Below, in pieces: positions 14,613 to 32,637 of a DNA stretch of 64,000 bases (position 1 is the first letter of the stretch; every line of letters starts with the position of its first letter). Both the position numbers and the translations under genes were made by a program. A model generated the notes under the pieces. That model had not been told where the DNA came from, did no database searches, and worked only from the letters and a program-made list of their open reading frames with translations. Location of the stretch: NCBI GenBank assembly GCA_018266055.1, contig JAFDYT010000008.1:28862-92861 (forward strand), given 5' to 3'. Origin of the DNA: Bacteroidota bacterium. GTDB taxonomy: Bacteria > Bacteroidota > Bacteroidia > Cytophagales > Cyclobacteriaceae.

Positions 14613-14626
14613 ATGACTTATTTCAT
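14613..14626. promoter_or_regulatory. Candidate Crp/Fnr-type box in the hya-hyp divergent region
   Basis: ATGACTTATTTCAT has the TGA-N6-TCA core of Crp/Fnr sites, with symmetric A and T flanks. It lies between hyaA (start 14515, leftward) and the small membrane gene (start 14701, rightward). Its centre is 59.5 bp from the end of the -7-like element at 14672-14679. It matches the box before ccoNO at 12 of 14 positions on the + strand. Toward hyaA no good -7 element is visible; the nearest candidate, GGAGTTTG read leftward at 14591-14584, matches only the TTTG half, at class II-like spacing. Confidence 0.55.
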
Positions 14627-14671
14627 TCTGAACTATGATTTTCATCAGAGAAAAAATCTTTAGGCAGGGAA

Positions 14672-14679
14672 TATATTTG
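14672..14679 (+). promoter_or_regulatory. -7 element TATATTTG of the hyp operon promoter
   Basis: TATATTTG fits the Bacteroidota TAnnTTTG consensus exactly and ends 21 bases before the ATG at 14701. No strong -33 TTTG is seen, which would fit a promoter that depends on an activator bound at the box centred near 14619.5. Confidence 0.5.
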
Positions 14680-14700
14680 ATCACCTTAAATAAAATATTT

Positions 14701-14910
14701 ATGAAAAAACTACTCGCCCTTTTCGTAGCCTTGGCATCGGTATCGACCGTATGGGCTCATCCCGGCCATGGTAATGGTAATCCTCTCAGTCCCGGACATT
14801 ATGTGACAAGTCCGGAGCACGCGCTGCCCCTGGCACTGACCATTGCAGCAGGAATAGTCCTGGCGAATTGGCTTGTAGCAAAACACCTTCGTAAATCCCA
14901 AAAAAATTAG
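14701..14910 (+). CDS. Small His-rich exported membrane protein at the head of the hyp operon
   Basis: The 69-residue protein has a signal peptide (1-19, ending STVWA). The mature protein begins HPGHGNGNPLSPGHY, four histidines counting the one in SPEHALP, followed by one membrane helix (about 42-60, LALTIAAGIVLANWLVAKHL) and a basic tail. ATG 14701 is chosen over an upstream in-frame ATG at 14635 because it gives a normal signal peptide and lies just after the -7 element. It ends 2 bases before hypA, so it is almost certainly co-transcribed with the nickel-insertion genes. No family was recognised. The exposed histidines and context suggest a periplasmic metal (nickel) role. The HPGHG start recalls HupE-type proteins, but the multi-helix HupE body is absent. 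Confidence 0.8.
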   Translation: MKKLLALFVALASVSTVWAHPGHGNGNPLSPGHYVTSPEHALPLALTIAAGIVLANWLVAKHLRKSQKN

Positions 14911-14912
14911 TC

Positions 14913-15254
14913 ATGCACGAGTTGTCAATCGTAATGGGCATTGTGGATATCGCCAGCGAAGAGGCGAAGCGACACCATGCTCATAAAATTGACAGCATCG
15001 AATTGGAAATTGGAACTATGGCAGGTGTAGAGTTGGACGCCCTTGATTTTGCCTGGGATGTCGGCGTGAAAGACACGCTGCTGGAACACAGCCAACGAAA
15101 AATAGAAACGGTAGAAGCCATGGCCCGCTGTACCAATTGCGACACGGTGTTCAAAGTTACCGAGCCGTATGCGCCTTGTCCCATGTGTGACAACCTGCTG
15201 CTGGAATATTTGTCTGGCAAAGAACTACGAGTAAAGTCATTAACTATCTCATAA
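14913..15254 (+). CDS. hypA: Hydrogenase nickel incorporation protein HypA
   Basis: The 113-residue metallochaperone delivers nickel to the large subunit together with HypB. The N-terminal MHELS supplies the nickel-binding His2 and Glu3. A zinc site is formed by CTNC (about 73-76) and CPMC (about 90-93). Length is normal for the family. Second gene of the rightward operon, 14 bases before hypB. Confidence 0.97.
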   Translation: MHELSIVMGIVDIASEEAKRHHAHKIDSIELEIGTMAGVELDALDFAWDVGVKDTLLEHSQRKIETVEAMARCTNCDTVFKVTEPYAPCPMCDNLLLEYLSGKELRVKSLTIS

Positions 15255-15268
15255 CAAAATTTTAAGCC

Positions 15269-16081
15269 ATGTGTGCTACGTGCGGATGTGATCACGATGC
15301 GAATGTCACGATCACCAAAACAGGAGAGACTCAATACAAACCGGTAAAGCCGGCAAACCTCCTTCAGATACCATCGCCTTCGCATCATCATCTTCCGGTG
15401 TCGAAGGAGATTCAATTGGAGCGCGACATCTTGCACAAGAATAATCTGCGCGCCAAACACAACCGCGAACATTTCCGCAGCAAACATATTTTCTCTGTGA
15501 ATCTGGTGAGTTCGCCGGGATCAGGAAAAACCTCGTTGCTTGAGCGCACGCTGCGCGACTTGAAAAACGAAATGCAGTTTTACGTGATCGAAGGCGACCA
15601 GCAAACCATGAACGACGCCAACCGCATTGCTGCAACCGGTGTAACGGCTGTGCAGATCAACACGGGCAAAGGCTGCCACCTCGATGCTGACATGGTGCAC
15701 CGCGCCATTCACCAACTGGAGCCTGCCGAAAACTCGGTGGTATTTATTGAAAACGTGGGCAACCTGGTTTGCCCCGCCATGTTCGACCTTGGCGAGAACG
15801 ACCGTGTCGCCGTCATCAGCGTCACCGAAGGAGACGACAAGCCTATCAAATATCCGGACATGTTCGCTTCCGCGGAATTGTGCATCATCAACAAGATTGA
15901 CTTACTTCCGTATGTTAACTTCAATGTTGAAAAGGCAAAAGAATATGCCCTCCGCGTAAACCCGAATTTGAAATTCCTTGAACTCTCTGTGACCTCAGGC
16001 GAGGGAATGTTTTACTGGTATCGCTGGCTCAAGGCCAAAGCCTTTTTCTGTTTCTCCACGCAACTTCAGAAAGCCGGTTAA
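15269..16081 (+). CDS. hypB: Hydrogenase nickel-insertion GTPase HypB
   Basis: The 270-residue SIMIBI-class GTPase powers nickel delivery. The N terminus MCATCGCD is the high-affinity nickel site (CxxCGC form), and a short histidine cluster SHHHLP near 38 may add metal storage. The P loop is SSPGSGKTS (about 83-91). EGDQQT and NKIDLLPY provide the remaining GTPase motifs. The C terminus SVTSGEGMFYWYRWL is standard. Four bases separate it from hypF. Confidence 0.97.
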   Translation: MCATCGCDHDANVTITKTGETQYKPVKPANLLQIPSPSHHHLPVSKEIQLERDILHKNNLRAKHNREHFRSKHIFSVNLVSSPGSGKTSLLERTLRDLKNEMQFYVIEGDQQTMNDANRIAATGVTAVQINTGKGCHLDADMVHRAIHQLEPAENSVVFIENVGNLVCPAMFDLGENDRVAVISVTEGDDKPIKYPDMFASAELCIINKIDLLPYVNFNVEKAKEYALRVNPNLKFLELSVTSGEGMFYWYRWLKAKAFFCFSTQLQKAG

Positions 16082-16084
16082 GCC

Positions 16085-18382
16085 ATGCCTGGTTACCGAT
16101 TACATATCGAAGGCCAGGTACAGGGCGTAGGCTTTCGACCGTATGTATTCAGGATGGCAAATCGATTAGGACTCACCGGTTGGGTCAACAATGGCAACGA
16201 CGGCGTGCACATTCAAATCGGTGGACCAGAAGATTCGTGCCGTGTATTCATCGAAGAAATTACAATGCGTCCGCCGCATCTTGCGCGCGTAGTGCGCCAG
16301 CAGGTGGAGCTCACCGAACGACCTCAACTTACTTCCTTCAGCATAGTTGAAAGCAACAATACCGCCGAGGTAAACCTGTTGCTCACGCCCGACCTGGGTT
16401 TGTGTGACGAATGCAGAAACGAAATAAAAAATCACGCTGACCGCCGCCGCGATTACGCTTTTACTACGTGCATTCATTGCGGGCCGCGCTATTCTATTGT
16501 CGACGCACTTCCGTACGATCGGGTCAGCACCTCTATGAGCGATTTTGAAATGTGCCCGGCATGCGAGCGCGAATACCATAACCCCGAAAACAGAAGACAT
16601 TATTCGCAAACTAATTCATGCCCGCAGTGCGGTGTGGCTCTGTCGCTCTGCGACAAGCAAGGGTTTGTAATCGCCACGTCGATGGATGTAATTCTCGATA
16701 GGATGGAAGAAGCTTTCCTCGACGGAAAGATCATTGCCGTTAAGGGAATTGGCGGATATATCCTCATGGCCGACGCAACTAATCCGCTGGCCGTGCAGCG
16801 TCTCCGCGACCGTAAGCGCCGGCCTTCTAAACCCTTCGCCTTGCTCTATCCCTCAGTGGAGAGCGTAGAACAAGACACGTGTCTCTCGTCGTTTGAAAAG
16901 AAAGAACTTCAGTCGATTGTCAGTCCGATAGTGCTGTTGATATTAAAAGAAAAAAATCAAAGTAAGCTCGCACTTGAACAAATTTCACCAGGGCTTTCTA
17001 AAGTAGGAGTGATGCTCCCCTACACGCCATTGTTTGAATTGATTGCCGCTCGCTGGGGAAAACCAATTGTGGCCACCAGCGGTAATATCAGCGGCTCCCC
17101 AATTTTCTATGATGACGACCAGGCGCTTAGAAATCTTGGCGGAATTGCCGATCTTTTTCTGACGAACAATCGCAAAATCGTTCACCCGCAAGACGACAGT
17201 GTCGTACAATTTGCCGGCCGGCAACGCATTGTGTTGCGACGTTCGCGCGGATTAGCTCCAACTTATTTGCCTAATCCATTTTCAAATAACAGCGAAACAA
17301 TTTTTGCAGCAGGCAGCGATTTGAAAAGTGCGTTCGCCTTTTTGACCAAAGGAAATTTATACGTCAGCCAGTTTCTTGGCGACCTTGAAAATTTTGAAAC
17401 ACAGGAATCATACCGCCACCTTTTACAGTATTATTTGAATTTATTTCAGGTGCAGCCTGATACCGTTTTGGTTGACGCGCATCCTGGATATTTTTCATCG
17501 CAGTCCGCAAGGGAATTAGCTGTGACGTGGCAGGCCAACGTAATTGAAGTGCAGCATCATCAGGCGCATTTTTGTGCGGTGCTGGCAGAAAACAATTTGC
17601 TCAACGCAGGCGACACCACGTTGGGCGTCATCTGGGACGGCACCGGCTGGGGCGACGACGCACAGATATGGGGTGGAGAGTTTTTCACTTATAGTGACAA
17701 CCAAATCCGGCGCGTGGCTCATCTGGATTATGTCGATCACCTGCTAGGTGACAAAACTTCGCGCGAGCCGAGATTAAGCGCACTTTCGTTGTGCGCCAGT
17801 ATTGATGGTGCCGAGGAGTTGCTGGTTAAAAAATTCAATTCCGCAGAGTGGAAAGTGTATCGCAACATGCTTCACCATCCTGATAATTTGAAAACATCAA
17901 GTATGGGCCGCCTCTTCGATGGCGTTGCTTCGTTGCTAGGCCTTTGCGACAAGTCGAGTTACGAAGGCGAAGCCGCACTGCTGCTTGAAGCCTGCGCTAT
18001 GAAAGCAGAGAGCTGTGATAGCTATCGATCAATGCCGTTTTCGCTAACCATCTATCTCAAAAACTTGATTGAGGAAATAAAGCGCGGCGTGCCGAAGGAA
18101 CAATTGGCGTATCGCTTTCATCATACTCTTGTTGATTGGATTGAAGAAGTAGCGCTTCAACAGAACATGACGCGCATCGCCTTCAGTGGCGGTGTTTTTC
18201 AAAACGCTTTGTTGAATAAATTAATCGTGGAAAAACTGGGTGAGCGTTTTCAACTTTATTTCCATCGTCAGCTTTCCAGCAACGACGAATGTATTGGCTT
18301 TGGCCAACTGGCATATTATCACATGCTGGCTGCTGGAGCAGATCGTGTACCGGAAGAAAATTTTATCACCGCTAACCGTTAA
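16085..18382 (+). CDS. hypF: Carbamoyltransferase HypF
   Basis: The 765-residue protein makes the carbamoyl/cyano group for the iron ligands from carbamoyl phosphate and ATP, passing it to HypE. Domains in order are an acylphosphatase domain (1-90) with GQVQGVGFRPYVF, a zinc region with CDEC, CIHC, CPAC and CPQC pairs (about 108-185), a YrdC-like domain (about 200-380) with the KxR-type segment RKRRPSKPFALLY, and a Kae1-like domain (about 390-760) with HHQAHF and FSGGVFQN. Length is normal. It lies 4 bases after hypB and 4 bases before hypC. Confidence 0.97.
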   Translation: MPGYRLHIEGQVQGVGFRPYVFRMANRLGLTGWVNNGNDGVHIQIGGPEDSCRVFIEEITMRPPHLARVVRQQVELTERPQLTSFSIVESNNTAEVNLLLTPDLGLCDECRNEIKNHADRRRDYAFTTCIHCGPRYSIVDALPYDRVSTSMSDFEMCPACEREYHNPENRRHYSQTNSCPQCGVALSLCDKQGFVIATSMDVILDRMEEAFLDGKIIAVKGIGGYILMADATNPLAVQRLRDRKRRPSKPFALLYPSVESVEQDTCLSSFEKKELQSIVSPIVLLILKEKNQSKLALEQISPGLSKVGVMLPYTPLFELIAARWGKPIVATSGNISGSPIFYDDDQALRNLGGIADLFLTNNRKIVHPQDDSVVQFAGRQRIVLRRSRGLAPTYLPNPFSNNSETIFAAGSDLKSAFAFLTKGNLYVSQFLGDLENFETQESYRHLLQYYLNLFQVQPDTVLVDAHPGYFSSQSARELAVTWQANVIEVQHHQAHFCAVLAENNLLNAGDTTLGVIWDGTGWGDDAQIWGGEFFTYSDNQIRRVAHLDYVDHLLGDKTSREPRLSALSLCASIDGAEELLVKKFNSAEWKVYRNMLHHPDNLKTSSMGRLFDGVASLLGLCDKSSYEGEAALLLEACAMKAESCDSYRSMPFSLTIYLKNLIEEIKRGVPKEQLAYRFHHTLVDWIEEVALQQNMTRIAFSGGVFQNALLNKLIVEKLGERFQLYFHRQLSSNDECIGFGQLAYYHMLAAGADRVPEENFITANR

Positions 18383-18386
18383 GTGT

Positions 18387-18647
18387 ATGTGTCTCTCCAT
18401 TCCCGGAAAACTTACCGCCATTACTTCACAACTCGATGATACTTTTCGCATCGGCAAAGTTTCCTTTGGCGGAATTCTTCGCGACGTAAACTTGTCGATG
18501 GTGCCAACCGCCGCGGTTGGCGACTATGTGCTCGTGCATGTGGGCGTGGCGATCGGGATCATTGATGAAGCCGAAGCTCACAAAACGATGGAGTATCTTT
18601 TGAAAGTAGAAAACCTGGACGAAGAACTAAACTCACAAGACTCATGA
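18387..18647 (+). CDS. hypC: Hydrogenase assembly chaperone HypC
   Basis: The 86-residue chaperone carries the iron ligand precursor with HypD and binds the immature large subunit. The start ATG 18387 is fixed by the invariant N terminus MCLSIPGK, whose cysteine 2 (after Met removal) is functional. The open frame extends 49 codons upstream inside hypF, but that extension is not protein-like. The last four bases overlap the hypD start (ATGA at 18644), indicating translational coupling. Confidence 0.97.
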
Positions 18648-19747
18648 AGTTCATCACCGAATTCCGCGATGCGGCCCTGGTAAAAAATTACCTCGACCAG
18701 CTCACTGAGATTACGACGCGCCCATGGACAATCATGGAGATTTGCGGCGGGCAAACGCACAGTCTTGTGAAGAATGGCATCCTCGAAATGCTTCCGAAAA
18801 AAATTACGATGGTGCATGGGCCAGGTTGCCCGGTGTGCGTCACGCCTATTGGGATTATTGATGAAGCCGTCCACCTCGTAAAAGATGAAAATGTAATTCT
18901 CTGCTCGTTTGGCGATATGCTTCGCGTGCCGGGTTCTGATAAAAACTTACTGGAAGCAAAAGCCAACGGCGGCGACGTCCGCATTGTGTACTCGCCGCTC
19001 GAAGCCGTGTCGATTGCTCAGAAAAACCCACATCGTCAGGTTGTGTTTTTTGCAGTTGGTTTTGAAACAACAGCTCCCGCCAACGCGCTGTCGGTAGTGC
19101 AAGCCGATAAACTGGGATTAAAAAACTACAGCATCCTCGCTTCGCACGTGCTGGTTCCTCCGGCGATGGAAGCGATACTCGCCGACCCTGAAACGCGCAT
19201 CGACGCTTTTCTCGCGGCAGGTCACGTTTGCACGATCATGGGCATGGAAGAATATTATCCGGTAGCTGAAAAATTTCATACGCCTATCGTGGTCACGGGC
19301 TTTGAGCCTGTGGATTTGCTTCAGGGGATTTTGATGGCTGTGCGTCAACTGGAAAGTGGAATCGCGAAAGTAGAAAACCAATATGCGCGTGTGGTGCTGC
19401 GCGAAGGCAATGTGCTGGCGCAACAAACAATCCACGAAGTATTCGACGTGGCCGACCGCAAATGGCGTGGCATTGGCACGATTCCGATGAGCGGATACGA
19501 AGTGAAAGAGAGTTACAAAGATTTTAACGCGCGGCGTAAATTCAACCTTGACTTTCAAGCCACAAAGGAAAACCCCGAATGCATCTCTGGCGATATTATG
19601 AAAGGCTTGAAGAAGCCGATTCAATGCCCTATGTTCGGAACCAAATGCAAACCTGAGCACCCACTCGGTGCGCCGATGGTGAGCAGTGAAGGGGCGTGCG
19701 CTGCGTACTATCAATATGCGGAAAACAAAAACCTGGCGGAGGTTTAA
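18644..19747 (+). CDS. hypD: Hydrogenase iron-centre assembly protein HypD
   Basis: The 367-residue [4Fe-4S] protein is the scaffold on which Fe(CN)2CO is built with HypC. The motif [15 protein letters not shown] near residue 25 and [10 protein letters not shown] near 55 carry the conserved cysteines. The four C-terminal cluster cysteines fall in [16 protein letters not shown] and EGACAAYY. Its ATG overlaps the hypC stop by four bases. Confidence 0.97.
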
Positions 19748-19759
19748 AAAAATACGTTT

Positions 19760-20833
19760 ATGGTGATGAGCGAAAAAGAGAATCAGAAAATATCAGTGCA
19801 GTTGAGTTGCCCGATGCCCAAACTTGATTTTGATGTGATCACCATGGGCCATGGCAGCGGCGGGTTGCTCACGCATCGCCTGCTGAACTCTGGCGTTTTT
19901 TCTTTGCTTAAAAATGAGCACCTCGACCAGCAGCACGACGGAGCTTCGCTGAATCTTACCGGCCGTACTGCCTTTACTACCGACAGCTACGTAATAGCAC
20001 CCATTTTTTTCCCCGGCGGGAATATAGGGGAGTTGGCGATTAATGGTTCAGTGAATGATCTCGCCATGTGTGGCGCCATTCCAAAATATTTGTCGCTGAG
20101 TTTTATTCTCGAAGAAGGCCTTCGCATGGAGGACTTCTGGGAGATACTTGTCGCTATAAAAGCCGCCAGTGATAAAGCGGGTGTGAAAATCGTAACCGGC
20201 GACACCAAAGTGGTCGAGAAAGGAAAAGGCGATCAGATCTTTATTAACACGAGTGGCATCGGCGAGATTCACCCGAAGGCTAACATTCATTTCAGCAACA
20301 TTAAACCGGGCGATAAAATTATAATCAGCGGCCAGATGGCTACGCACGGCATCGCTATTTTGTCGCAGCGCAATGGACTTGAGTTTGAAACGACCATTCA
20401 AAGTGATACAGCGGCATTGAATCATGCAGTGAAACAGATTCTCGATGCCGAAGGCGATGCTGTTCATTTTCTTCGCGACCCCACGCGCGGCGGAGTAGCC
20501 ACCGTACTGAATGAAATAGCGGAGCAAACTCACCTTGGCGTAGAACTTCAACATCAGCATTTCCCCGTAGACGAGCAGGTGCTTGGTGCTTGTGAGATGC
20601 TCGGCCTCGACCCGCTTTACGTTGCCAACGAGGGAATCTTTATCGCCATAGTCGATGCGAAAAAGGCCGACAGCATACTTTCAATAATACGTCGGACAGA
20701 AGTGGGTGAAAATGCTGCGATAATCGGGTCTATTGTTGCCGACCATCCACGCCAGGTGATTTCCTCCAGCCCGGCCGGCGGACGACGTGTGGTGAGTTAC
20801 CTTGTCGGCGAGCAGCTTCCTCGCATCTGCTGA
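19760..20833 (+). CDS. hypE: Hydrogenase maturation protein HypE
   Basis: The 357-residue PurM/AIR-synthase-like ATPase dehydrates the S-carbamoyl group to a cyano ligand. It ends exactly in PRIC, the invariant C-terminal cysteine-containing tail that carries thiocyanate. GHGSGG near residue 31 and FTTDSYVIAPIFFPGG are family motifs. ATG 19760 or 19766 could be the start (MVMSEKEN). It is the last hyp gene, which makes the set hypABFCDE complete. Confidence 0.97.
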   Translation: MVMSEKENQKISVQLSCPMPKLDFDVITMGHGSGGLLTHRLLNSGVFSLLKNEHLDQQHDGASLNLTGRTAFTTDSYVIAPIFFPGGNIGELAINGSVNDLAMCGAIPKYLSLSFILEEGLRMEDFWEILVAIKAASDKAGVKIVTGDTKVVEKGKGDQIFINTSGIGEIHPKANIHFSNIKPGDKIIISGQMATHGIAILSQRNGLEFETTIQSDTAALNHAVKQILDAEGDAVHFLRDPTRGGVATVLNEIAEQTHLGVELQHQHFPVDEQVLGACEMLGLDPLYVANEGIFIAIVDAKKADSILSIIRRTEVGENAAIIGSIVADHPRQVISSSPAGGRRVVSYLVGEQLPRIC

Positions 20834-20881
20834 AAAACCGGTCATCTCTTTTCGTTTGGTGTAGTTCGCATTTGTGCCGAT

Positions 20882-20901
20882 GTTTGCTAATCATCAGCAA
20901 A
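20882..20901. repeat. Perfect inverted repeat between hypE and the lipoprotein gene
   Basis: GTTTGCT and AGCAAAC form a perfect 7-bp stem around a 6-base spacer, ending 7 bases before the ATG at 20909. There is no following T run, so it is not a classic terminator. It could be an operator or an RNA hairpin that separates the lipoprotein gene from the hyp transcript. Confidence 0.4.
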
Positions 20902-20908
20902 CCCGACC

Positions 20909-22636
20909 ATGATACGATCACACTCATTTTTTAACTGGCTCATATTCCTTTCGCTAATTCTTACCGCCTGTACTGAAAAGGAAAAGCCGACAGTGCAAAT
21001 TACTATCGATCGAATCGCATTGATGCCTGATCAGCCTCAGCCGTTCAAGATGATCGACTGGCGTGAAAAGGCGCAAAGCTTTGACCGCTATGTGTTTGAC
21101 ACAACACTTACCGGAGAATACAGACCGTTTCTATGGACCGATGATTCAAAAAGAAATTTTAAACAGAATACGGTGGGAATGTTCACGACCATTGGCGATG
21201 TGCGACAAGGGCCTAAGGGCAATAAAGAATTTCACGAAGCGCTTTGCGCGATGGGCGCAGTGCTTGGCGCAGGTCTGACGGGCATCGACAAAACCAATCA
21301 GAACGGGCGCAACTATGTGAAGATGGTGCAGAATTATTTCAACGCCGACAACGGTTGGAATATCATGATGGACAATACCAATCCTGCGGTAGCAAAACTC
21401 GGTGGCGGCTATGGCCGTGATTGGTGGTACGATGTGTTTCCCAACGTTTTGTTTTATGGACTCTGCGAATTGTACCCCAACGTGCCGCGGGCCGATAGCC
21501 TACAGCATATTATCGCCGAGCAATTCTTTAAAGCCGACTCGGTGCTTAAAGGCAACTACAATTATTCGTATTTTGATTACAGCAAGATGACCGGCAAGGT
21601 AAACAACATTCCGCACCAGCAGGATGCAGCCGCGGGCCATGCGTATGTGTTGCTGTGCGCCTACGAGAAATTTCACGACGAACGCTACTTGCACGGAGCC
21701 ATGTCGGCAATGGATGCTTTTGCTAATCAGAAAGAGAGTCGGTTTTATGAAGTGCTCATGCCGTTTGGTGCGCTTGTAGCAGCGCGCCTGAATGCAGAGT
21801 ATGGCACGCATTACGACGTAAAGAAAATTCTCTACTGGACCTTTGAGGGATGCAAAGCAAGCGATGGCCGGACAGGCTGGGGCGTCATTGCCGAGCGGTG
21901 GGGCGACTACGATGTACACGGCTTGCAAGGAAGCATTACTGATGGAGGTGGCTATGCCTTCCTGATGAATTCATTTGACCTGGCCTGGCCGCTCGTGCCG
22001 ATGGTTCGCTACGATAGCCGTTATGCAACAACCATTGGCAAGTGGATGCTCAACGTGACCAACGCCGCGCGACTTTGTTATCCTTATGAAATCGACGATC
22101 AGCATCAATGGCTGCCGGAAAAAAAAGATATCACCAAAAATGTGATTGCGTACGAAGGCCTTCGCAAGGAGGATTATGTGTACAAGAAGCCCGCACTGAA
22201 AGGCGTAAGCCCTGTAGCCCTTGGCGATGGACCGCAATGGGTGAAAGGCCAGCCGGAGATTTCGATGTTCAGCTTATATAGTTCGGCACAGGTGGGAATT
22301 TTTGGCGCACTGGTGAAGAGGACCAACGTCGAAAAGATCCTTCAGATCAATTGCAACGCTACCGACTTTTACGCAAAGAAGTCCTTTCCCACATTCTTGT
22401 ATTACAATTCATATGGGGAAACAAAAGAAGTTTGTTATCAGCATGAATCATCTTCCCGTGTCCACTTGTATGACGCACTGCGGCATGAACTCGTTGCCAC
22501 GAATGTAAATGAGCAGGGCTGCTTTTCAATTCCTCCCAAATCAGCGGCGTTAATTGTGGTGTTACCTGCAGGAAGCCGCATTCAAAAGAAAGACAAGGTT
22601 TATGTGGTGAGTGATACGGTGATCGCTTACGAGTAA
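20909..22636 (+). CDS. Large lipoprotein of unknown function, probable helical-toroid fold
   Basis: The 575-residue protein has a lipobox LTAC with the modified cysteine near residue 21. I do not recognise the family. The middle shows repeated amphipathic helices with aromatic/histidine motifs (QDAAAGHAYVLLCAYEKFHD, GYAFLMNSFDLAW, MLNVTNAARLCYPYEID) like six-hairpin glycosidase-type proteins. The last 130 residues look beta-rich. A sugar-binding or sugar-cleaving role is an inference only. It follows hypE by 75 bases on the same strand but has no evident link to hydrogen metabolism. It ends 5 bases before the convergent safE-like gene. Confidence 0.65.
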   Translation: MIRSHSFFNWLIFLSLILTACTEKEKPTVQITIDRIALMPDQPQPFKMIDWREKAQSFDRYVFDTTLTGEYRPFLWTDDSKRNFKQNTVGMFTTIGDVRQGPKGNKEFHEALCAMGAVLGAGLTGIDKTNQNGRNYVKMVQNYFNADNGWNIMMDNTNPAVAKLGGGYGRDWWYDVFPNVLFYGLCELYPNVPRADSLQHIIAEQFFKADSVLKGNYNYSYFDYSKMTGKVNNIPHQQDAAAGHAYVLLCAYEKFHDERYLHGAMSAMDAFANQKESRFYEVLMPFGALVAARLNAEYGTHYDVKKILYWTFEGCKASDGRTGWGVIAERWGDYDVHGLQGSITDGGGYAFLMNSFDLAWPLVPMVRYDSRYATTIGKWMLNVTNAARLCYPYEIDDQHQWLPEKKDITKNVIAYEGLRKEDYVYKKPALKGVSPVALGDGPQWVKGQPEISMFSLYSSAQVGIFGALVKRTNVEKILQINCNATDFYAKKSFPTFLYYNSYGETKEVCYQHESSSRVHLYDALRHELVATNVNEQGCFSIPPKSAALIVVLPAGSRIQKKDKVYVVSDTVIAYE

Positions 22637-25219: not shown

Positions 25220-26143
25220 TTACAATGAGGACTGTGTTTTTACAGAGTCGGCTTTGGCAGGCTCTGCTGCTTTTACTTCTGGTTTATACAAATCGCCTTC
25301 TGGTTTTTTGCCGTTGGCTGGCTTTGAACCTTGTAGTGTAAGCACATAGCTCGCCACATTGCGAATGGCCTCAGGGCTCATCACGGCTCCCCAGGCTACC
25401 ATGTTGGTGCCAGGCACACCGTTGGTCACTACGTGAAAGAGGTTCTTGATGTCTCCACCATGTTTCCAGTATTCGTCGGTCAGGTTAGGGCCGATGTCGC
25501 CACCACCATCTTTGCGATGACATGACGCGCAGGTGTTCAGGAAGGTCGTCTTTCCATTGGCAAGATCGGCAGCATCTGTAGTTACGGTCACTGTAGCTTC
25601 GTCAATCTTAGGGCCAGGGTTGGCAGCTTTGATTTTTTGAAGCTCAGCATTGGCGGCTGCCACTTCACTGTCGTATTCGCTTTTTGAAAGCGGGAACGAA
25701 TTGAATACGTGGTAGGCCAGCAGGTAAAGGATACCCCACACGATAGCGCCATAGAACAACGCTTTCCACCACGGTGGCAAGTGGTTGTCAAGTTCTTTGA
25801 TACCATCATAGTTGTGATCTAACACCAGTGTGGCTTCTTTTTCTTCGGGAACAAATCCGTTGATGCTGGTCCAGAACTTGCTCCACATCGAAGGCTCCGG
25901 TTTGTAAGCAATGCCCAGTTTCTCAGCGCGATCTCTGGCTGCGCTGTCAGCGAGTGCGCGGATCACAGTTAAAAGGTAGATCAGCACGATCAGCACCAAA
26001 ATGGATACCACAAAGATGAATCCGACAACTAGGTAAAACTTGGTCATCTGATCATCTCCGGCAGCAGGTGCCGCGGCTGTTTGTGCCTGGCTGGCCAGCG
26101 AGGCGCCAAGCATGGACAGGAATAGAAATAATATGCGTTTCAT
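25220..26143 (-). CDS. ccoP: cbb3 oxidase subunit III CcoP, mono-haem form
   Basis: The 307-residue protein has a signal-like N terminus and a helix (about 30-60), then the CcoP segment LPPWWKALFYGAIVWGILYL (about 125-145) as second helix, then one cytochrome c domain with CASCH near residue 206 and a methionine ligand region. Proteobacterial CcoP has two CxxCH sites; only one is present here, as in many Bacteroidota. It shuttles electrons to the catalytic subunit. The start overlaps the ccoQ stop by four bases. Confidence 0.95.
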   Translation of the reverse strand: MKRILFLFLSMLGASLASQAQTAAAPAAGDDQMTKFYLVVGFIFVVSILVLIVLIYLLTVIRALADSAARDRAEKLGIAYKPEPSMWSKFWTSINGFVPEEKEATLVLDHNYDGIKELDNHLPPWWKALFYGAIVWGILYLLAYHVFNSFPLSKSEYDSEVAAANAELQKIKAANPGPKIDEATVTVTTDAADLANGKTTFLNTCASCHRKDGGGDIGPNLTDEYWKHGGDIKNLFHVVTNGVPGTNMVAWGAVMSPEAIRNVASYVLTLQGSKPANGKKPEGDLYKPEVKAAEPAKADSVKTQSSL

Positions 26144-26337
26144 AAAGAGGTTGAATTAGAAGGTTGAATTGAATTACTGCCATCGTCTAATGGCTTTTCG
26201 CTCATTTCGTGAATGAAGCCGCGGTCAACCGTTACGGTGTACCACAAAAGGATCAGAAAGAAAAGGAAGAAGATGACAAACGAGATGACAGGCCAAATCT
26301 GAACGTTGTCGATGCTTTGCAATATTTCTTTGTACAT
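26140..26337 (-). CDS. ccoQ: cbb3 oxidase subunit CcoQ-like small membrane protein
   Basis: The 65-residue protein starts at ATG 26337 (MYKEILQSIDNVQIWP). The longer open frame upstream runs into the ccoNO 3' end and lacks protein character. One membrane helix (about 15-38, VISFVIFFLFFLILLWYTV) and a charged tail fit CcoQ, which stabilises the complex. It lies between ccoNO and ccoP, overlapping the latter by four bases. Confidence 0.88.
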   Translation of the reverse strand: MYKEILQSIDNVQIWPVISFVIFFLFFLILLWYTVTVDRGFIHEMSEKPLDDGSNSIQPSNSTSL

Positions 26338-26356
26338 AACTTTTCTTTTTGAAGTG

Positions 26357-28495
26357 TTACTTGGTGGCTTCGGCTGTTTTCTCAGCTTTGATGTCTCTAC
26401 CCAGACGTTGCAGGTAAGCAATCAATGCTACGATTTCAGTTTCAGGAGCAACTTCATATCCGTCTTTCTTGAGGCTTTCAGCTACTTTGGCCGCTTGTGC
26501 CTGCAAGTCGTTGTTGGCAGTAGCTTCGTAACCTTCTTCGTACGGTACACCTATGGTGCGCAACGCTTTGATCTTCGAGGCTGTGGTTGACAGGTCAACA
26601 GTTTGATCAAACAACCATGGATAAGCTGGCATGATGGAGCCGTTGGATACCTCCGAAGGAGCAAGCATATGGCGGTAGTGCCAGCTATCGGCATATTTTC
26701 CACCTACACGGTGCAGGTCCGGACCGGTGCGTTTTGATCCCCACAAGAACGGGTGATCATACACGTATTCACCAGCTTTTGAATATTCGCCGTCTTTAGG
26801 ATCGTAGCGTTGTACTTCACTGCGGAACGGACGGATCATCTGGCTATGGCAGTTTACACAACCTTCGCGAATGTAAATATCACGACCCTGCAACTCAAGC
26901 GGAGTATATGGCTTCACCGAAGTGATGGTAGGTACATTCGATTTTATGAGGAAGGTAGGTACCATTTCTATAATACCGCCAATCAGGATTGCTACTAGGG
27001 CAAGCACTGTGAAAAGAATTGGTTTGCTTTCCAGTGCATGATGCCAGTAACCATCCGTATTAGCCGCTTTAGTCATCGGTGCAACTTCAGCTTCTTCGTT
27101 GGCAATAAACTTGCCTGAGTAGGCAGTTTTCAATAGGTTATAAATCATCACCAGCGTTCCTGAGAAATAAAGCAGACCGCCAAAAGCGCGTAGCATGTGC
27201 ATGGGCAATATCTTGGTCGTTGTTTCAAGGAAGTTGGCGTATGTGAGGAAACCATCGGCGTTGAATTCTTTCCACATCAGGGATTGTACCACACCGGAAG
27301 TGTACATTGGCAGTGCATAGAAGATGATACCGAGTGTGCCCAGCCAGAAGTGGAGGTTCGCCAGTTTGGTAGAAAACAATTTCGTACCCCACATTTTTGG
27401 AACAACCCAATAGAGCATACCAAAAATCAGGAACCCGTTCCAGCCTAAACCGCCTACGTGTACGTGGGCTACGATCCAGTCGGTAAAGTGGGCAATCGCG
27501 TTTACGTTTTTCAGGGAAAGAAGCGGACCTTCCAATGTTGCCATACCGTAGGCGGTAACGGCTACCACGAAGAATTTCAATACAGGTTCTTCACGCACTT
27601 TATCCCAGGCACCTCTCAGGGTAAGAAGGCCGTTGAGCATACCTCCCCAGCTTGGGGCAATTAACATGATAGAGAACACAACACCCAGGGATTGTGCCCA
27701 ATCAGGCAGCGCAGAATATAACAAATGGTGAGGACCTGCCCAGATATACAAGAAGATCAATGACCAGAAGTGGATAATCGAAAGACGATACGAGTACACC
27801 GGACGGTTCGCTGCCTTTGGCAGGAAGTAATACATCAACCCCAGGTAGGGTGTAGTGAGGAAGAATGCTACTGCATTGTGGCCATACCACCATTGCACCA
27901 GCGCGTCTTGCACACCGGCAAATGCAGAATAGCTTTTGAACAGACTGGCGGGCATTTCAAACGAGTTGAAAATGTGCAACACAGCAACGGTTACGATGGT
28001 GGCAATGTAAAACCAGATGGCTACGTAAAGATGTTTTTCACGGCGCACGAGAATTGTGCCGATCATATTCCATGAAAATACTACCCAAACCACGGCAATG
28101 GCAATGTCAATCGGCCATTCCAATTCAGCATACTCCTTGGCAGTAGTGAGGCCTAAGGGCAAAGTGATGGCTGCGGCTAAAATGATCAGTTGCCAACCCC
28201 AGAAGTGAATCCAACTGAGTTTGTCGCTAAACATGCGTGTTTTGAGCAACCGCTGCAGCGAATAGTACACACCACCAAACATCGCATTGCCCACAAAGGC
28301 AAAGATGATAGCGTTAGTGTGCAACGGCCTGATCCGCCCGAAACTCGTGTACTGCAGATCAAAGTTGAAAATAGGGTAGAATAGCTGGGTCGCCGCCAGC
28401 AGCCCTACCAGCATGCCAACCACGCCAAAAATGACGGTGGCAATCAGAAAGGCCTTTACGACTTTATTGTCGTAATGAATTTTTTCTAGTTCCAT
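26357..28495 (-). CDS. ccoNO: Fused cbb3 oxidase subunits I and II (CcoN-CcoO)
   Basis: The 712-residue protein starts at ATG 28495 (MELEKIHYDN). The first 490 residues are the 12-helix haem-copper core, with RPLHTNAIIFAF (low-spin haem), WYGHNAVAFF and AGPHHLLYSALPDW (CuB/high-spin haem region) and IVAHVHVGGLGWNG. After a linker, a helix anchors a CcoO-type cytochrome c domain with REGCVNCHSQMIRPF near residue 547. Separate ccoN and ccoO are usual in Proteobacteria; the fusion is common in Bacteroidota. It reduces O2 to water with high affinity and pumps protons. First gene of the leftward operon. Confidence 0.97.
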   Translation of the reverse strand: MELEKIHYDNKVVKAFLIATVIFGVVGMLVGLLAATQLFYPIFNFDLQYTSFGRIRPLHTNAIIFAFVGNAMFGGVYYSLQRLLKTRMFSDKLSWIHFWGWQLIILAAAITLPLGLTTAKEYAELEWPIDIAIAVVWVVFSWNMIGTILVRREKHLYVAIWFYIATIVTVAVLHIFNSFEMPASLFKSYSAFAGVQDALVQWWYGHNAVAFFLTTPYLGLMYYFLPKAANRPVYSYRLSIIHFWSLIFLYIWAGPHHLLYSALPDWAQSLGVVFSIMLIAPSWGGMLNGLLTLRGAWDKVREEPVLKFFVVAVTAYGMATLEGPLLSLKNVNAIAHFTDWIVAHVHVGGLGWNGFLIFGMLYWVVPKMWGTKLFSTKLANLHFWLGTLGIIFYALPMYTSGVVQSLMWKEFNADGFLTYANFLETTTKILPMHMLRAFGGLLYFSGTLVMIYNLLKTAYSGKFIANEEAEVAPMTKAANTDGYWHHALESKPILFTVLALVAILIGGIIEMVPTFLIKSNVPTITSVKPYTPLELQGRDIYIREGCVNCHSQMIRPFRSEVQRYDPKDGEYSKAGEYVYDHPFLWGSKRTGPDLHRVGGKYADSWHYRHMLAPSEVSNGSIMPAYPWLFDQTVDLSTTASKIKALRTIGVPYEEGYEATANNDLQAQAAKVAESLKKDGYEVAPETEIVALIAYLQRLGRDIKAEKTAEATK

Positions 28496-28522
28496 GGGTA
28501 GTATAGGGTTAAAATGATGGCT

Positions 28523-28551
28523 TAAAAATAGAAGTGAGGCCAATGGCTCAA
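28523..28551 (-). promoter_or_regulatory. Candidate ccoNO promoter
   Basis: Read leftward, TTG (28551-28549) is followed after 18 bases by TATTTTTA (28530-28523), a 7-of-8 match to TAnnTTTG. The expected start of transcription near 28518 leaves a leader of about 23 bases before ATG 28495. Confidence 0.4.
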
Positions 28552-28574
28552 CCTGACGGAATGCAGGGATTTTG

Positions 28575-28588
28575 ATGATTTATGTCAT
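28575..28588. promoter_or_regulatory. Candidate Crp/Fnr-type box upstream of ccoNO
   Basis: ATGATTTATGTCAT (leftward ATGACATAAATCAT) has the TGA-N6-TCA core with symmetric flanks. Its centre is 58.5 bp upstream of the end of the -7-like element, about position -63 to -64, the class I position for Fnr-type activators. It shares 12 of 14 positions with the box in the hya-hyp region. Confidence 0.55.
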
Positions 28589-28640
28589 AGAATCGAATCA
28601 TTGGCAAAGATTGGTCTATGTATTGAGGAAGATAGCAACT

Positions 28641-28685
28641 TTTGTTGAATCTTAAAAACCATTTGAATTGAATGGGTTCAACAAA
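28641..28685. repeat. Inverted repeat downstream of the truncated haemoglobin gene
   Basis: TTTGTTGAA and TTCAACAAA form a perfect 9-bp stem; inside it ACCATT and AATGGGT can extend the pairing. A second hairpin (ATCGTT, 6-base loop, AACGAT) lies nearer the haemoglobin stop, near 28719-28736. Neither has a T run on the leftward strand, so termination of the usp-cco transcript here is only a suggestion. Confidence 0.35.
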
Positions 28686-28736
28686 AAAACAGCCTTTTTA
28701 CTCGTTTGAAGAGGGATTAATCGTTCGTTAAAACGA

Positions 28737-29096
28737 TCAACGTCTTGCTGCCAGTCCCAATTTATGCTGCCATACACCAGCAATTCCTTGCGCACGGCCT
28801 TTGGCTTCATTGGCATTGAAGCCTGCAAAATTCTCATCTACAGTTTGTGTAAACAACTCAAGCCAGCGCTCGAAATGAGAAGCGTCAATTTTTAATTTAA
28901 TGTGAGGAGCAAAGGGCGCACCCTGATAGCTTTGATCACCAAGCAATACGGTCGCCCAGAAATTATAAATGAGTGGGGTGTGATGTTCCCAATCGACGTG
29001 CTCGAAAATCGGCGCAAGCAGCGCATCGGCTTTTACTTTAGTGTAGAAGAGATCGACCAACTTCACTACATCCTCCCGTCGTGTAATATCTTCCAT
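28737..29096 (-). CDS. Group III truncated haemoglobin
   Basis: The 119-residue globin has the group III pattern: DVVKLVDLFYTKVKADALLAPIF, FWATVLLG and a proximal-histidine region FAPHIKLKIDASHFERWLELF. It should bind O2 or NO in the cytoplasm. Its ATG abuts the ccoS stop with no gap and it closes the usp-ccoI-ccoS operon, which places it under the same control as oxidase assembly. Protection of cbb3 from NO, or oxygen delivery or sensing, would fit, but this is inference from position. Confidence 0.9.
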   Translation of the reverse strand: MEDITRREDVVKLVDLFYTKVKADALLAPIFEHVDWEHHTPLIYNFWATVLLGDQSYQGAPFAPHIKLKIDASHFERWLELFTQTVDENFAGFNANEAKGRAQGIAGVWQHKLGLAARR

Positions 29097-29291
29097 TTAG
29101 TTATGTTGTTCTGCTTTCTTGTCGGCGGCAGCCTTCTGTATTTCTTCCTTGCTTTTGTCTTCGAATAGCATGCGCACCGAGGGTCCGTAGGTATCATCAT
29201 ACTGTCCGGACTTCACATTCCAGATGAAGAATACCAGAAAAATCACAGCCATGGTGATAGAAATGAAAATAAGAACGATGATGATTTCCAT
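29097..29291 (-). CDS. ccoS: cbb3 oxidase maturation protein CcoS
   Basis: The 64-residue protein has one N-terminal membrane helix (about 2-25) followed by WNVKSGQYDDTYGPSVRMLFED, the family signature. CcoS is needed to insert haem and copper cofactors into the oxidase. It lies 2 bases after ccoI and abuts the haemoglobin gene. Confidence 0.93.
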   Translation of the reverse strand: MEIIIVLIFISITMAVIFLVFFIWNVKSGQYDDTYGPSVRMLFEDKSKEEIQKAAADKKAEQHN

Positions 29292-29293
29292 GG

Positions 29294-31696
29294 TTAAGGT
29301 TTTGATTTTGTGACACCCCGGGCTGCCCAGTTGACGGCCAGAGTACTAAAGCCTACCACGCTGATGCTGCTGATGGGCATAAGAATAGCCGCCAGCAAAG
29401 GCGACAAATGTCCGCTCACCGCAAAGCCCAGCGTGATGATGTTATAAAAGAAAGAGATACCAAAAGCCATTTTTAAAATCGTGATCGACTTGCGGCTGAG
29501 TTTCAAAAAGCGGTCGAGGTATTTGAGTTCATTACCCTGCAAGATGCCGTCGCTGGCAGGGGTAAATACCCCGGTGTCGTCGGTGACGGCAATGCCAACA
29601 TCGCTTTGCTTCAGCGCGCCGGAGTCATTGAGTCCGTCGCCTACCATCATGACATGATAGCCGTTGTGTTGCAGGTTAGATACGAAGTGAAGTTTTTCGA
29701 GTGGCGATTGATTGAAGTGCATTCCGGCATTGGCTGGGAATACAGATTTCATTCGCTCTTCTTCCTGTGCGGTATCTCCTGACAACAGATATACCGGCCA
29801 TTTGATATTGATACGATCCAGCAAATTTTTCAGTCCCTGGCGCACGGAGGTTTCGAGGGCAAAGTAGCCGCGCACTTCTCCATCCACCGACACAAAAACT
29901 TTCGACTTCACTTCTTTGTGTTGATCTTCAATACCTACCAGCGCCGCCGATCCCACTTTGATATCGTGGTCTTCGATGGTTGCCTGAATTCCCTTTGAAG
30001 GGATTTCACTGAAATTGCTGATTGGCGAACTGGTGCGGTGCGCAATGGATTTTGAAATAGCCCGGCTCAGCGGATGAGTAGAAGAGGAGGTCATTGCTTT
30101 CACCCAACCTAATTCTTCTTCCGAAAGGATGCCGACAAAGCGCGCTTCGGATGTGCCATGCGTTACGGTTCCAGTCTTGTCGAATACTACGGCGTCAATG
30201 GCGGCAAGGCGTTCAATGACATCGGCATTCTTTAAATAAAACCCGTTGCGGCCAAATACACGCAGCATATTGCCAAAGGTAAACGGTGCCGCGAGCGCCA
30301 GTGCACATGGGCAAGCTACCATCAATACAGAAGTAAACACGAGCCACATTTGTTGCGGTGCAGCGATGTACCAGTAGATGGCGGTGATGATTGCCACGCC
30401 CATCACGATCCACGAGAAGCGTTGAGCAGCGCGGTCAATGATTTTTTTATAATGGCTTTCTTCTTTCTTTTGGAAAGCGTCGTTGTTCCAAAGGCTGGTC
30501 AGGTGGCTTTGCGATATTTTTTTCTCCACTACAAACTCCACCGGCTGGCCAATCAGTCGCCCGCCACCGTAGATGAAGTCTCCCGCTTTCACAAATACCG
30601 GTTTTGATTCGCCGGTCACAAAGCTGTAATCAATATAAGCCTCGGCACTGAGCACGTGGCTGTCGGCCGGAATAATCTCCATGTTGCGAACGCGAATGAT
30701 ATCACCTTTCTCAAGCGTATGCACTACCACGGGCCTCCAGTCGGCGTTTACTTTTTTATTCACCGCCAGCGGAAAGTACGACTTGTAATCGCGGTCGAAG
30801 GCGAGGCTGTCGTACGTTTTGCTTTGGAACCAGCGGCCAATGAGTAGAAAGAATACCAGCCCGGCGAGCGAGTCAAGATATCCCGGCCCGTAATGTGTGA
30901 TGATGTCAAAACCGCTCCGGAGGAACAAGGCCGCAAGTCCCACGGCAATGGGCACGTCAATGTTGATCTGTTTTTGTTTAAAACTCTTCCACGCCGATGT
31001 AAAATATTCCTGGCCACTGTAAAACACAACAGGCACGGAGAGGAAGAGATTCAGAAAGGAAAACACCAGCCGCAGTTGGCGGTCGGCATCGTCAAGGCCA
31101 AGGTATTCGGGAAAGCTGAGCAGCATGATATTGCCGAAGCAAAATCCGGCCACGGCCAATTTGGTCACCAATGCTTTGTTCATCGGCGACACATTCTTTT
31201 GTTCCTCCAGGCTGATGGAAGGAGAGTAGCCAAGCGCGGCAAGAAGGCGCGCTACACCTGCAAGCGAAATTTTTGTGGGGTTGAAATCAACGACAATTTG
31301 CTTTCGACTGAAGTTGACTTCGGCGCGGATGATGCCGGGATTAAGTCGCTTCAGGTTTTCCAACAACCAGATGCACGAGATGCAATGGATGGTAGGAATA
31401 AAGAACTGCACCTTGCAAAATGTTTCCGAGGAAAAGGCAAGCACTTTTTTGATGACTTCGGGCTCATCGAGGAAGGCGTAGCTTTCTTCGCGCACGTGGC
31501 GTAAGGAAACTCCTGCACTTTGGTCCATCGAATAGTATTCGCACAGATTGTTTTCATTGAGAATCTCAAACACCGTGCGGCAGCCGTGGCAGCAAAAGGT
31601 TTTGTCTTGTTCGGTAATGATTTCGTCGTTGCAGGGTTGCCCGCAGTGAAAACAGACCGTCTTCGTCTTTACCTCAAAAGGCTCAGTTAACTCCAT
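29294..31696 (-). CDS. ccoI: Copper-transporting P1B-type ATPase CcoI (FixI)
   Basis: The 800-residue protein exports copper for assembly of the oxidase CuB site. It has an N-terminal cysteine-rich metal-binding part (CFHCGQPC, FCCHGC) and an HMA-like domain with HCISC (about 105). Eight helices are predicted, with the ion-path motif CPCALALAAP near 465. Phosphorylation motif DKTGTVTHG lies near 505, and the hinge GDGLNDSGALKQSDVG near 710. The FixI-type N terminus separates it from CopA efflux pumps. It follows usp by 25 bases and precedes ccoS by 2. Confidence 0.95.
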   Translation of the reverse strand: MELTEPFEVKTKTVCFHCGQPCNDEIITEQDKTFCCHGCRTVFEILNENNLCEYYSMDQSAGVSLRHVREESYAFLDEPEVIKKVLAFSSETFCKVQFFIPTIHCISCIWLLENLKRLNPGIIRAEVNFSRKQIVVDFNPTKISLAGVARLLAALGYSPSISLEEQKNVSPMNKALVTKLAVAGFCFGNIMLLSFPEYLGLDDADRQLRLVFSFLNLFLSVPVVFYSGQEYFTSAWKSFKQKQINIDVPIAVGLAALFLRSGFDIITHYGPGYLDSLAGLVFFLLIGRWFQSKTYDSLAFDRDYKSYFPLAVNKKVNADWRPVVVHTLEKGDIIRVRNMEIIPADSHVLSAEAYIDYSFVTGESKPVFVKAGDFIYGGGRLIGQPVEFVVEKKISQSHLTSLWNNDAFQKKEESHYKKIIDRAAQRFSWIVMGVAIITAIYWYIAAPQQMWLVFTSVLMVACPCALALAAPFTFGNMLRVFGRNGFYLKNADVIERLAAIDAVVFDKTGTVTHGTSEARFVGILSEEELGWVKAMTSSSTHPLSRAISKSIAHRTSSPISNFSEIPSKGIQATIEDHDIKVGSAALVGIEDQHKEVKSKVFVSVDGEVRGYFALETSVRQGLKNLLDRINIKWPVYLLSGDTAQEEERMKSVFPANAGMHFNQSPLEKLHFVSNLQHNGYHVMMVGDGLNDSGALKQSDVGIAVTDDTGVFTPASDGILQGNELKYLDRFLKLSRKSITILKMAFGISFFYNIITLGFAVSGHLSPLLAAILMPISSISVVGFSTLAVNWAARGVTKSKP

Positions 31697-31721
31697 CGTA
31701 AATCAGCAGTTGTTAAAATTA

Positions 31722-32552
31722 TCACTTCGACTTGAAAGTCCAAATAGGGCATTCAATGTGGTTCACCACGTCTTCGGCTATGCTTCCGCTCATCAGGTGT
31801 GAAATACCCGTGCGACCGTGTGTGCCCATCGCCACCATGTCGGCATCTACTTCTTTGGCAAAATTGATCAATCCTGACTCCTGATCCTGGTCGTTGTAAA
31901 TATTTACCGTACAGTCTTTAATCATGTAGCGTTTTACAAAGGCATTGAGCTTGGGTCGGATATCAATATCGCGGCGGAAATTGGCCGGCGTGTTGATAAA
32001 CACGATATGTAAAGTCGCATCGAAAAATTTTTGAAGCGCTTTTATTTTACTTACCAACCCCTCTTCCTCTCTGTCAAGCGCGTTGGGGAAAACGATATTT
32101 TTGATGGCGCCGCGCAAATTTTTCTTGATGGCAATAACAGGAATAGGCGAGGAGCGCACGATCTTTTCTGTGTTCGATCCGATCACCAGCTCTTTGATGC
32201 CGGAAGCTCCTTTCGTACCCATGACGATCAGGTCGGCCTCTTTCTCTTCAGCAAACGTGTTGATCGAGAGCGCCGTCGTTCCGTAGGCTACATGCCAGGA
32301 AATTTTGACGCCTTCTTTATTGTGCTTGGCGATTAGTTTTTCGAAACTTTTGGCTGCGTTTTCCTCAACATCTTTCAGATAGGCTTCTTCAAACGACAGC
32401 GCGGGCATGAGCATGGTGTCATACATGGCCGACAACTCTACAACATGAAGTAAAATAACTTCACCTCTGCTCTGTTCGGCAACGTCAATGGCAAATTTGA
32501 ATGCCTGTGTTGCTGTTTCAGAGAAATCGAATGGTACTACTATCTTTTTCAT
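31722..32552 (-). CDS. Tandem universal stress protein
   Basis: The 276-residue cytoplasmic protein has two UspA folds (about 1-145 and 150-276). The first starts KKIVVPFDFSETATQAFKFA and ends with the nucleotide-binding loop MGTKGASGIKELVIGSNTE (G-x2-G-x9-G-S/T type). The second ends MGTHGRTGISHLMSGSIAE. Both loops look intact, so ATP binding is likely. It heads the operon usp-ccoI-ccoS-haemoglobin and has two Crp/Fnr-type boxes upstream. Similar Usp proteins in other bacteria are induced at low oxygen. Confidence 0.92.
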   Translation of the reverse strand: MKKIVVPFDFSETATQAFKFAIDVAEQSRGEVILLHVVELSAMYDTMLMPALSFEEAYLKDVEENAAKSFEKLIAKHNKEGVKISWHVAYGTTALSINTFAEEKEADLIVMGTKGASGIKELVIGSNTEKIVRSSPIPVIAIKKNLRGAIKNIVFPNALDREEEGLVSKIKALQKFFDATLHIVFINTPANFRRDIDIRPKLNAFVKRYMIKDCTVNIYNDQDQESGLINFAKEVDADMVAMGTHGRTGISHLMSGSIAEDVVNHIECPIWTFKSK

Positions 32553-32571
32553 AACGGATTAGTTAGTAAAC

Positions 32572-32579
32572 CAAAATTA
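32572..32579 (-). promoter_or_regulatory. -7 element TAATTTTG of the usp-ccoI-ccoS promoter
   Basis: Read leftward, TAATTTTG matches TAnnTTTG exactly and ends 19 bases before ATG 32552. The lack of a clear -33 fits activation from the boxes upstream. Confidence 0.5.
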
Positions 32580-32601
32580 GACGGGACGACATAGCCCCTG
32601 C

Positions 32602-32615
32602 ATGACGACTGTCAC
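32602..32615. promoter_or_regulatory. Promoter-proximal Crp/Fnr-type box of usp
   Basis: ATGACGACTGTCAC holds TGAC-N4-GTCA, a perfect 4-base dyad with the TGA-N6-TCA core. Its centre is 36.5 bp from the end of the -7 element, placing it near -41.5, the class II position for Crp/Fnr activators. Confidence 0.55.
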
Positions 32616-32623
32616 GGGCAGGG

Positions 32624-32637
32624 GTGACTTTTATCAC
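32624..32637. promoter_or_regulatory. Promoter-distal Crp/Fnr-type box of usp
   Basis: GTGACTTTTATCAC has the same core and flanks. Its centre is 22 bp (two DNA turns) above the proximal box and 58.5 bp from the end of the -7 element, the same distance as at ccoNO. Confidence 0.55.

Follow-up and report, generated by a model that had tools for sequence, protein, structure and literature searches.

Are the hydrogenase maturation (hyp), cbb3 oxidase (ccoNO) and usp-ccoI operons of a Cyclobacteriaceae bacterium (phylum Bacteroidota), which lie together in one 64,000-nucleotide stretch of contig JAFDYT010000008.1 (positions 28,862 to 92,861; hereafter the window), controlled by one and the same regulator? 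A preliminary description of the window had attributed all three to a single Crp/Fnr-type activator, on the basis of four boxes of the RTGAY-N4-RTCAY type at a constant distance from the -7 promoter element. The coordinates and strands of the four boxes are all correct, as are the distances from box centre to the end of the -7 element (59.5 at hyp, 58.5 at ccoNO and 58.5 at usp), and the proposal of a common activator is supported by the conservation of the boxes and by the exactness of their registers, i.e., the distances in base pairs (bp) from the TGA of a box to the TA of the -7 element. A pair of boxes had been described for usp only; this pair is real, but those at hyp and ccoN had been overlooked. 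All three promoters have two sites, 22 bp apart (Table 1). The second site at ccoN is a half-site that retains only the TCA of TGA-N6-TCA, and the other boxes of the three promoters are inverted repeats. We consider it likely that this tandem module is read in this genome by a receiver-Crp fusion protein under a FixL-like kinase, and elsewhere by an FNR-like protein with four cysteines.

The box motif alone was rejected as evidence. Exact matches in the window number 3 against 0.97 expected, one-mismatch matches 22 against 22 expected, and in the whole genome of 4.79 megabases (Mb) the box is barely enriched, with 55 sites compared to 39 for the reversed pattern. Because the box alone is near chance, we used the registers as evidence. 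A composite pattern of TGAN6TCA, a TCA at +22 and TAnnTTT at 57-58 has three matches in the window, and these are the three promoters; among 300 dinucleotide-preserving shuffles, 299 contained no match and one contained a single match. The composite was defined after the relatives had been inspected, so the shuffle figure is no independent test; the registers in the loci of relatives come closer to one.

The loci of relatives, 170 in all (1.26 Mb), were chosen by similarity to CcoNO, Usp or HypB alone, without use of the motif; they are mutually related rather than independent, and the loci of the window are included. They contain 658 strand-oriented TGAY-N4-RTCA boxes (649 once identical stretches are removed, with the same register counts). 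The distance from TGA to the TA of a TAnnTTTR element was 57 bp in 64 cases and 35 bp in 44, compared to a mean of 0.7 and a maximum of 3 for the other distances from 13 to 140 bp, with the exception of 58 (6 cases) and 36 (4 cases). In these homology-fetched loci, the two registers exceed the other distances about 60- to 90-fold. A second TGAN6TCA at +22 was found in 93 cases, against a mean of 0.67 and a maximum of 5 for other spacings. In 118 genomes of the family, including this one, the 57 pattern has 487 matches compared to 54 for its reversed form and the 35 pattern 724 compared to 57; matches exceed those of the reversed pattern in 104 (57) and 109 (35) of the genomes and fall below them in 6 and 2, respectively. 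Since the reversed pattern differs in sequence, it is no control for spacing, a role taken by the distance counts in the 170 loci.

These results uphold the earlier claim that a constant spacing at these promoters is hard to explain by chance. Conservation in relatives, a check which the preliminary description had recommended, was examined here: the boxes are kept in many relatives, with registers exact to the base. The genome-wide test that it had also called for, with reversed patterns and other spacings as controls in place of shuffled promoters, did not refute the proposal but gave only a small excess in this genome itself. The near-chance frequency of the box alone in the window would agree with a common spacing that arose by chance between AT-rich promoters, the three operons not being co-regulated. 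Given the absence of the composite from nearly all shuffles and the excess of the registers in the homology-fetched loci, we regard such a coincidence as hardly credible.

A centre at -41.5 is the class II position of Crp/Fnr activators. In a start-site study of Flavobacterium psychrophilum, the TAnnTTTG element occupies -12 to -5 (PMC9723704), which places the centre of a box in the 35 register at -41.5 and that of a box in the 57 register at -63.5. The box centres therefore fall at the class II position and near a class I position (-61.5/-63.5), with the -7 placement taken from another species. This published placement also served as an indirect check on the transcription starts, the third test that the preliminary description had named. 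We aligned 71 promoters picked on a TGAN6TCA at 57 bp. Their distal box leans to a TGA[CT]nAAAATCA-like sequence, and the proximal TCA, which had no part in the selection, is conserved at 97, 94 and 99%. These promoters share the -7 element of the Bacteroidota sigma-A promoter (TAnnTTTG), but the alignment contains no conserved -33 element, as expected if an activator substitutes for it. This promoter anatomy is conserved in many of the relatives.

In the mechanism that we infer, two TGAY-N4-RTCA boxes with a spacing of 22 bp, or about two helical turns, are placed before the Bacteroidota sigma-A -7 element and would allow two activator dimers to sit on one face of the helix. The proximal dimer, centred at -41.5, would act as a class II activator in contact with RNA polymerase, and the dimer at -63.5, on the stronger and more conserved box, would help to recruit it. 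The outcome at low oxygen would be joint induction of hydrogenase maturation, of the cbb3 oxidase and of the copper/haem assembly of this oxidase. The same boxes might instead be repressor or dual sites, such that binding at the -41.5 box, which covers the -35 region, blocks transcription in one condition. The proximal box coincides in part with the place expected for a -33 element, which has no conserved TTG, and a box between the kinase gene described below and a divergent usp gene lies 28-41 bp before the kinase start codon, with no clear -7 element in register, a place better fitting repression. A repressor, however, needs neither a base-exact centre at -41.5 nor a fixed second site, whereas class II/I activation would need both, the second site lying two turns away. 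Furthermore, the F. psychrophilum study reports cbb3 genes to be up under oxygen limitation (PMC9723704), which likewise argues against repression, and we consider this alternative improbable.

The distribution of the module was assessed for each operon. For ccoN, 80 loci with named records were taken across the phylum, and the 77 with at least 1.5 kilobases (kb) upstream were scored. A strict register match within up to 5 kb upstream was found in 40 of the 77, compared to a mean of 0.25 for four other spacing pairs. The matches come from records titled Cyclobacteriaceae, Pedobacter, Mucilaginibacter, Chitinophaga, Dyadobacter and Flavobacterium, among others; within the same distance, no strict register match was found at ccoN loci titled Ignavibacteria-like, Melioribacteraceae, Verrucomicrobia, Limisphaerales, Calditrichota or Neomarinimicrobiota. 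Eight Flavobacteriales loci (L191, L219, L224-L226, L232, L235 and L237) have the 35 register and no strict 57. The full 57+35 layout is present in 13 and the 22-bp pair in 19 of 30 usp loci, a set that includes the locus of the window and two loci that do not begin at the gene.

At hypB, inspection of 1.5 kb upstream in 24 loci gave a strict-box or tandem register match only in the window and in L141 (L150 has a loose one). The impression of an unconserved hyp box was revised with 14 longer loci. In the divergent hyd/hyp intergenic region, scored with a looser -7 element, at least one TGAN6TCA box is present in the window and in all seven relatives of that layout. In five of these (G017, G056, G054, G092 and G117) a degenerate TAnnTT follows at the 35 register, and in G017 at the 57 register as well; the registers fit the hydrogenase side in G065 and neither side in G006. 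A strict box in the 35 register also precedes hypA in L386.

Which protein might read the module? The regulator gene was said to lie outside the window, and none of the Crp-family proteins of the genome is encoded there. Five such proteins score above the Pfam cut-off, and a weak sixth match appeared ArsR-like by eye. With a profile built from the five, we searched the ccoN, usp and hypB loci for Crp-like open reading frames (ORFs). All 19 ORFs found are nearest to the receiver-Crp fusion protein (contig 6:85317-86375) and none to the other four proteins; 12 are stand-alone proteins with several cysteines, 2 are complete receiver-Crp fusions and 5 are cut by the end of the locus. In 17 of the 49 genomes for which manually compiled coordinates were compared (57 fusion-positive genomes minus 8 without a full-length ccoN row), no more than 15 kb separates the fusion gene from ccoN. 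The stand-alone relatives (hereafter Cys-type) have four invariant cysteines in 30 of 30 loci returned, and the receiver-Crp of this genome has V, Y, F and I at these columns. The best match of a Cys-type query in this genome was the receiver-Crp itself (34%), and no Cys-type homologue was found; a congener carries a Cys-type gene beside usp (L105). The recognition helices of the two types are nearly identical, Glu and Arg being present in all 30 proteins examined of each type. The linkage, the similarity of the helices and the failure to find the alternative in this genome suggest that this genome probably uses, in place of an Fe-S FNR, the receiver-Crp fusion that adjoins a FixL-like kinase. 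Many relatives would have the same sites read by an FNR-like protein with four cysteines, whose recognition helix is nearly identical.

The module could be real and be read here by another Crp protein, for which the most likely candidate is encoded at contig 6:23763-23924 (helix GLRVETVIR). Glu and Arg occupy the recognition positions of this protein too, and boxes lie upstream of and within its own long frame (C6:24581 and C6:24426). However, it is nearest to none of the 19 Crp-like ORFs at the ccoN, usp and hypB loci, and its linkage to ccoN was not searched separately; the protein seen close to ccoN in the 17 genomes is the receiver-Crp. We therefore judge this candidate unlikely to be the reader, and favor the receiver-Crp.

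A gene for a 416-amino-acid PAS histidine kinase is located directly upstream of the fusion gene, and the same order is found in 29 of 30 loci. The receiver residues (the phospho-acceptor Asp, with Thr and Lys) are invariant in 30 of 30 proteins and the H-box in 29 of 29 kinases. The output domains of the receiver-Crp are cNMP_binding and HTH_Crp_2, not the LuxR-type HTH of FixJ. A comparison of the PAS stretch with the PDB gave 14 sequences at 1e-5, namely FixL (best 2e-17), the multi-sensor kinase 10jx, and DosP or its heme domain. The proximal His and the Arg of FixL (Ala in 1y28) align with the kinase PAS without gaps, this His being the heme ligand of FixL. Both residues are kept in 19 of 29 kinases, a motif that other PAS families may share, and the match to FixL is suggestive only, because the PDB is rich in heme PAS domains. 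A kinase with a PAS domain resembling the FixL heme domain would phosphorylate the adjacent receiver-Crp directly.

Of the 118 genomes, 43 encode the fusion only, 49 the Cys-type only, 14 both and 12 neither (Fisher p 1e-9, a value that ignores kinship, the classes being clade-structured). The class cut-offs were about 1e-60 (fusion) and 1e-48 (Cys-type) on manually compiled lists; the fusion class takes in paralogues of about 40-50% identity, and among the proteins close to or under the Cys-type cut-off are some stand-alone Crp proteins that lack the FNR cysteines. In a 30-genome tree, the starred branches force at least three regulator changes, and the paired test (p 0.5) has no power. We compared the ccoN loci by regulator class with a looser -7 element and about 500 bp upstream (G093 was excluded, as its locus begins inside the gene). 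A strict box with pair or register near ccoN was present in 31 of 34 fusion-only genomes, 9 of 14 with both, 10 of 37 Cys-type-only genomes and 4 of 4 with neither. The apparent scarcity of boxes in Cys-type-only genomes was overturned when 20 of the 27 match-less genomes were rescanned with 5 kb upstream, the other seven being left out: 19 of the 20 have a strict register match and 18 the 57-register tandem. These tandems sit about 3.4 kb upstream, where the ccoN operon of Cys-type-only genomes seems to begin. Stand-alone Crp proteins with the helix GTAKET(V/L)IR and without the FNR cysteine pattern (L475-L478 and L480, from G090, G009, G016 twice and G025) are a possible third sensor type; the GTAKETVIR protein of G090 belongs to one of the 12 genomes with neither regulator. 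Apparently, one exact operator layout is combined with exchangeable sensors. We lean toward the view that the paired-box grammar (-63.5/-41.5) is kept across the phylum and that the sensor has been exchanged between a four-cysteine FNR, a FixL-like kinase with receiver-Crp (FixJ and FixK combined in a single molecule), and a cysteine-poor stand-alone Crp, all three reading the same sites through nearly identical recognition helices.

Several observations speak against the receiver-Crp reading of a shared module. In this genome the box is barely enriched and the composite matches are few: the tandem pattern has 12 strand matches (usp on both strands) compared to 5 for the control, the distal pattern 5 compared to 2, and the proximal pattern 13 compared to 3. 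The hyp promoter departs from the rule, with a spacing of 58/36, one base above the usual 57/35, and a single base of its distal box differing from RTGAY-N4-RTCAY; moreover, 6 of the 14 longer hyp loci (L383, L388-L391 and L393) contain no box that qualifies. The fusion gene is on another contig than cco and usp, unlike in close relatives, and its recognition residues are shared by the contig 6:23763 protein. Three genomes, G003, G006 and G056, have 9, 11 and 14 register matches and neither regulator above the cut-offs. Ten of 29 kinases beside the fusion (L266 and L269-L277, which are more distant relatives) are without the FixL-like segment, and eight of these align a receiver-like ILLTGQ stretch there. 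Finally, the mutual exclusion of the two regulators was rejected as proof of replacement, being uncorrected for kinship and backed by a tree test without power.

The proposed system resembles known ones in part. Proteobacteria use FNR/FixK-type class II activation of cbb3 oxidase genes, and the TGA-N6-TCA core, the -41.5 centre, the cbb3 target and the low-oxygen logic are common to both. The differences are the fixed second site at -63.5, 22 bp away, the Bacteroidota -7 element, the outer bases of the box, which are TTGAT..ATCAA in FNR sites, and that no cysteine-type FNR was found in this genome. In the rhizobial FixL-FixJ-FixK cascade, a heme-PAS kinase, a receiver protein and a Crp-family activator control the cbb3 oxidase. 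The proposed system likewise has a heme-PAS-like histidine kinase, a receiver, a Crp-family activator and a cbb3 target; here, however, receiver and Crp output form one protein, so that the transcription step from FixJ to fixK would be missing. The four-cysteine relatives align with E. coli FNR at the N-terminal CxxC and the equivalent of C122, and they keep the Glu and Arg of the helix. Their fourth invariant cysteine is displaced from C29 and their cluster binding is putative, and the receiver-Crp of this genome has none of the four. Among literature titles and abstract openings, with thin coverage of subscription journals, we found none naming this motif in Bacteroidota. The registers provide an exact, testable promoter rule for apparent low-oxygen gene control in a large phylum, from which regulon members and base-exact start sites can be predicted for many genomes. 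Among the relatives, the sensor seems to have been replaced with the DNA site left as it was, a natural series that makes the survival of a network through regulator replacement directly testable.

Elsewhere in this genome, pattern matches outside open frames of 100 amino acids are found ahead of the genes of glycogen phosphorylase and pyruvate phosphate dikinase. Others stand ahead of genes for a YiaA/B protein, an OmpA-like protein, a PAS protein (35 register) and several unknowns, and the polyphosphate kinase 2 gene is preceded by a tandem that crosses short open frames. Among the distal matches outside the promoters of the window, those at C8:48847 and C14:210539 cross open frames of at least 100 amino acids and that at C17:40049 does not. 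Given 13 proximal matches compared to 3 for the control, some of these are chance matches. The boxes upstream of and inside the long frame of the contig 6 Crp gene (L085; contig 6:24397-24594) suggest a cascade or autoregulation.

Table 1. Promoter elements and genes of the three operons, in window coordinates. Predicted starts follow from setting the TA of the -7 element at -12, after the F. psychrophilum study (PMC9723704).
Feature	Sequence	Position	Strand	Remark
hyp distal box	ATGACTTATTTCAT	14613..14626	+	centre about -64.5; 58 bp (TGA to TA) before TATATTTG
hyp proximal box	ATGATTTTCATCAG	14635..14648	+	22 bp past distal box; centre about -42.5
hyp -7 element	TATATTTG	14672..14679	+	predicted start 14684
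Leader ORF of 69 amino acids, then hypA, hypB, hypF, hypD, hypE		14701..20833	+	
[NiFe] hydrogenase small subunit gene		13385..14515	-	divergent from hyp, same intergenic region; then large subunit, cytochrome b
ccoN distal box	ATGACATAAATCAT	28575..28588	-	centre -63.5; 57 bp before TATTTTTA
ccoN proximal half-site	CTGCATTCCGTCAG	28553..28566	-	22 bp past distal box
ccoN -7 element	TATTTTTA	28523..28530	-	predicted start 28518
Fused ccoNO (cbb3 oxidase subunits I/II), then ccoP, ccoG		26357..28495	-	
usp distal box	GTGATAAAAGTCAC	32624..32637	-	centre -63.5
usp proximal box	GTGACAGTCGTCAT	32602..32615	-	centre -41.5
usp -7 element	TAATTTTG	32572..32579	-	predicted start 32567
usp		31722-32552	-	first gene of unit 29294..32552
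Heavy-metal P-type ATPase gene		29294-31696	-	after usp; CcoI-like by position

Within the window, a further 22-bp tandem (CTGATATTTGTCAT, with TCA at +22) lies at 43418-43451, about 100 bp before the gene of a 1733-amino-acid multi-PAS histidine kinase; no -7 element was found in register with it. The 69-amino-acid ORF that opens the hyp operon (14701-14907) has no family match, and similar ORFs precede hypA in several relatives. After hypE, positions 20909-22636 hold an ORF of 575 amino acids without an NCBIfam or Pfam match. Between the ccoI-like ATPase gene and ccoNO, a small bacterial globin-like gene (PF01152) is located at 28737-29096.

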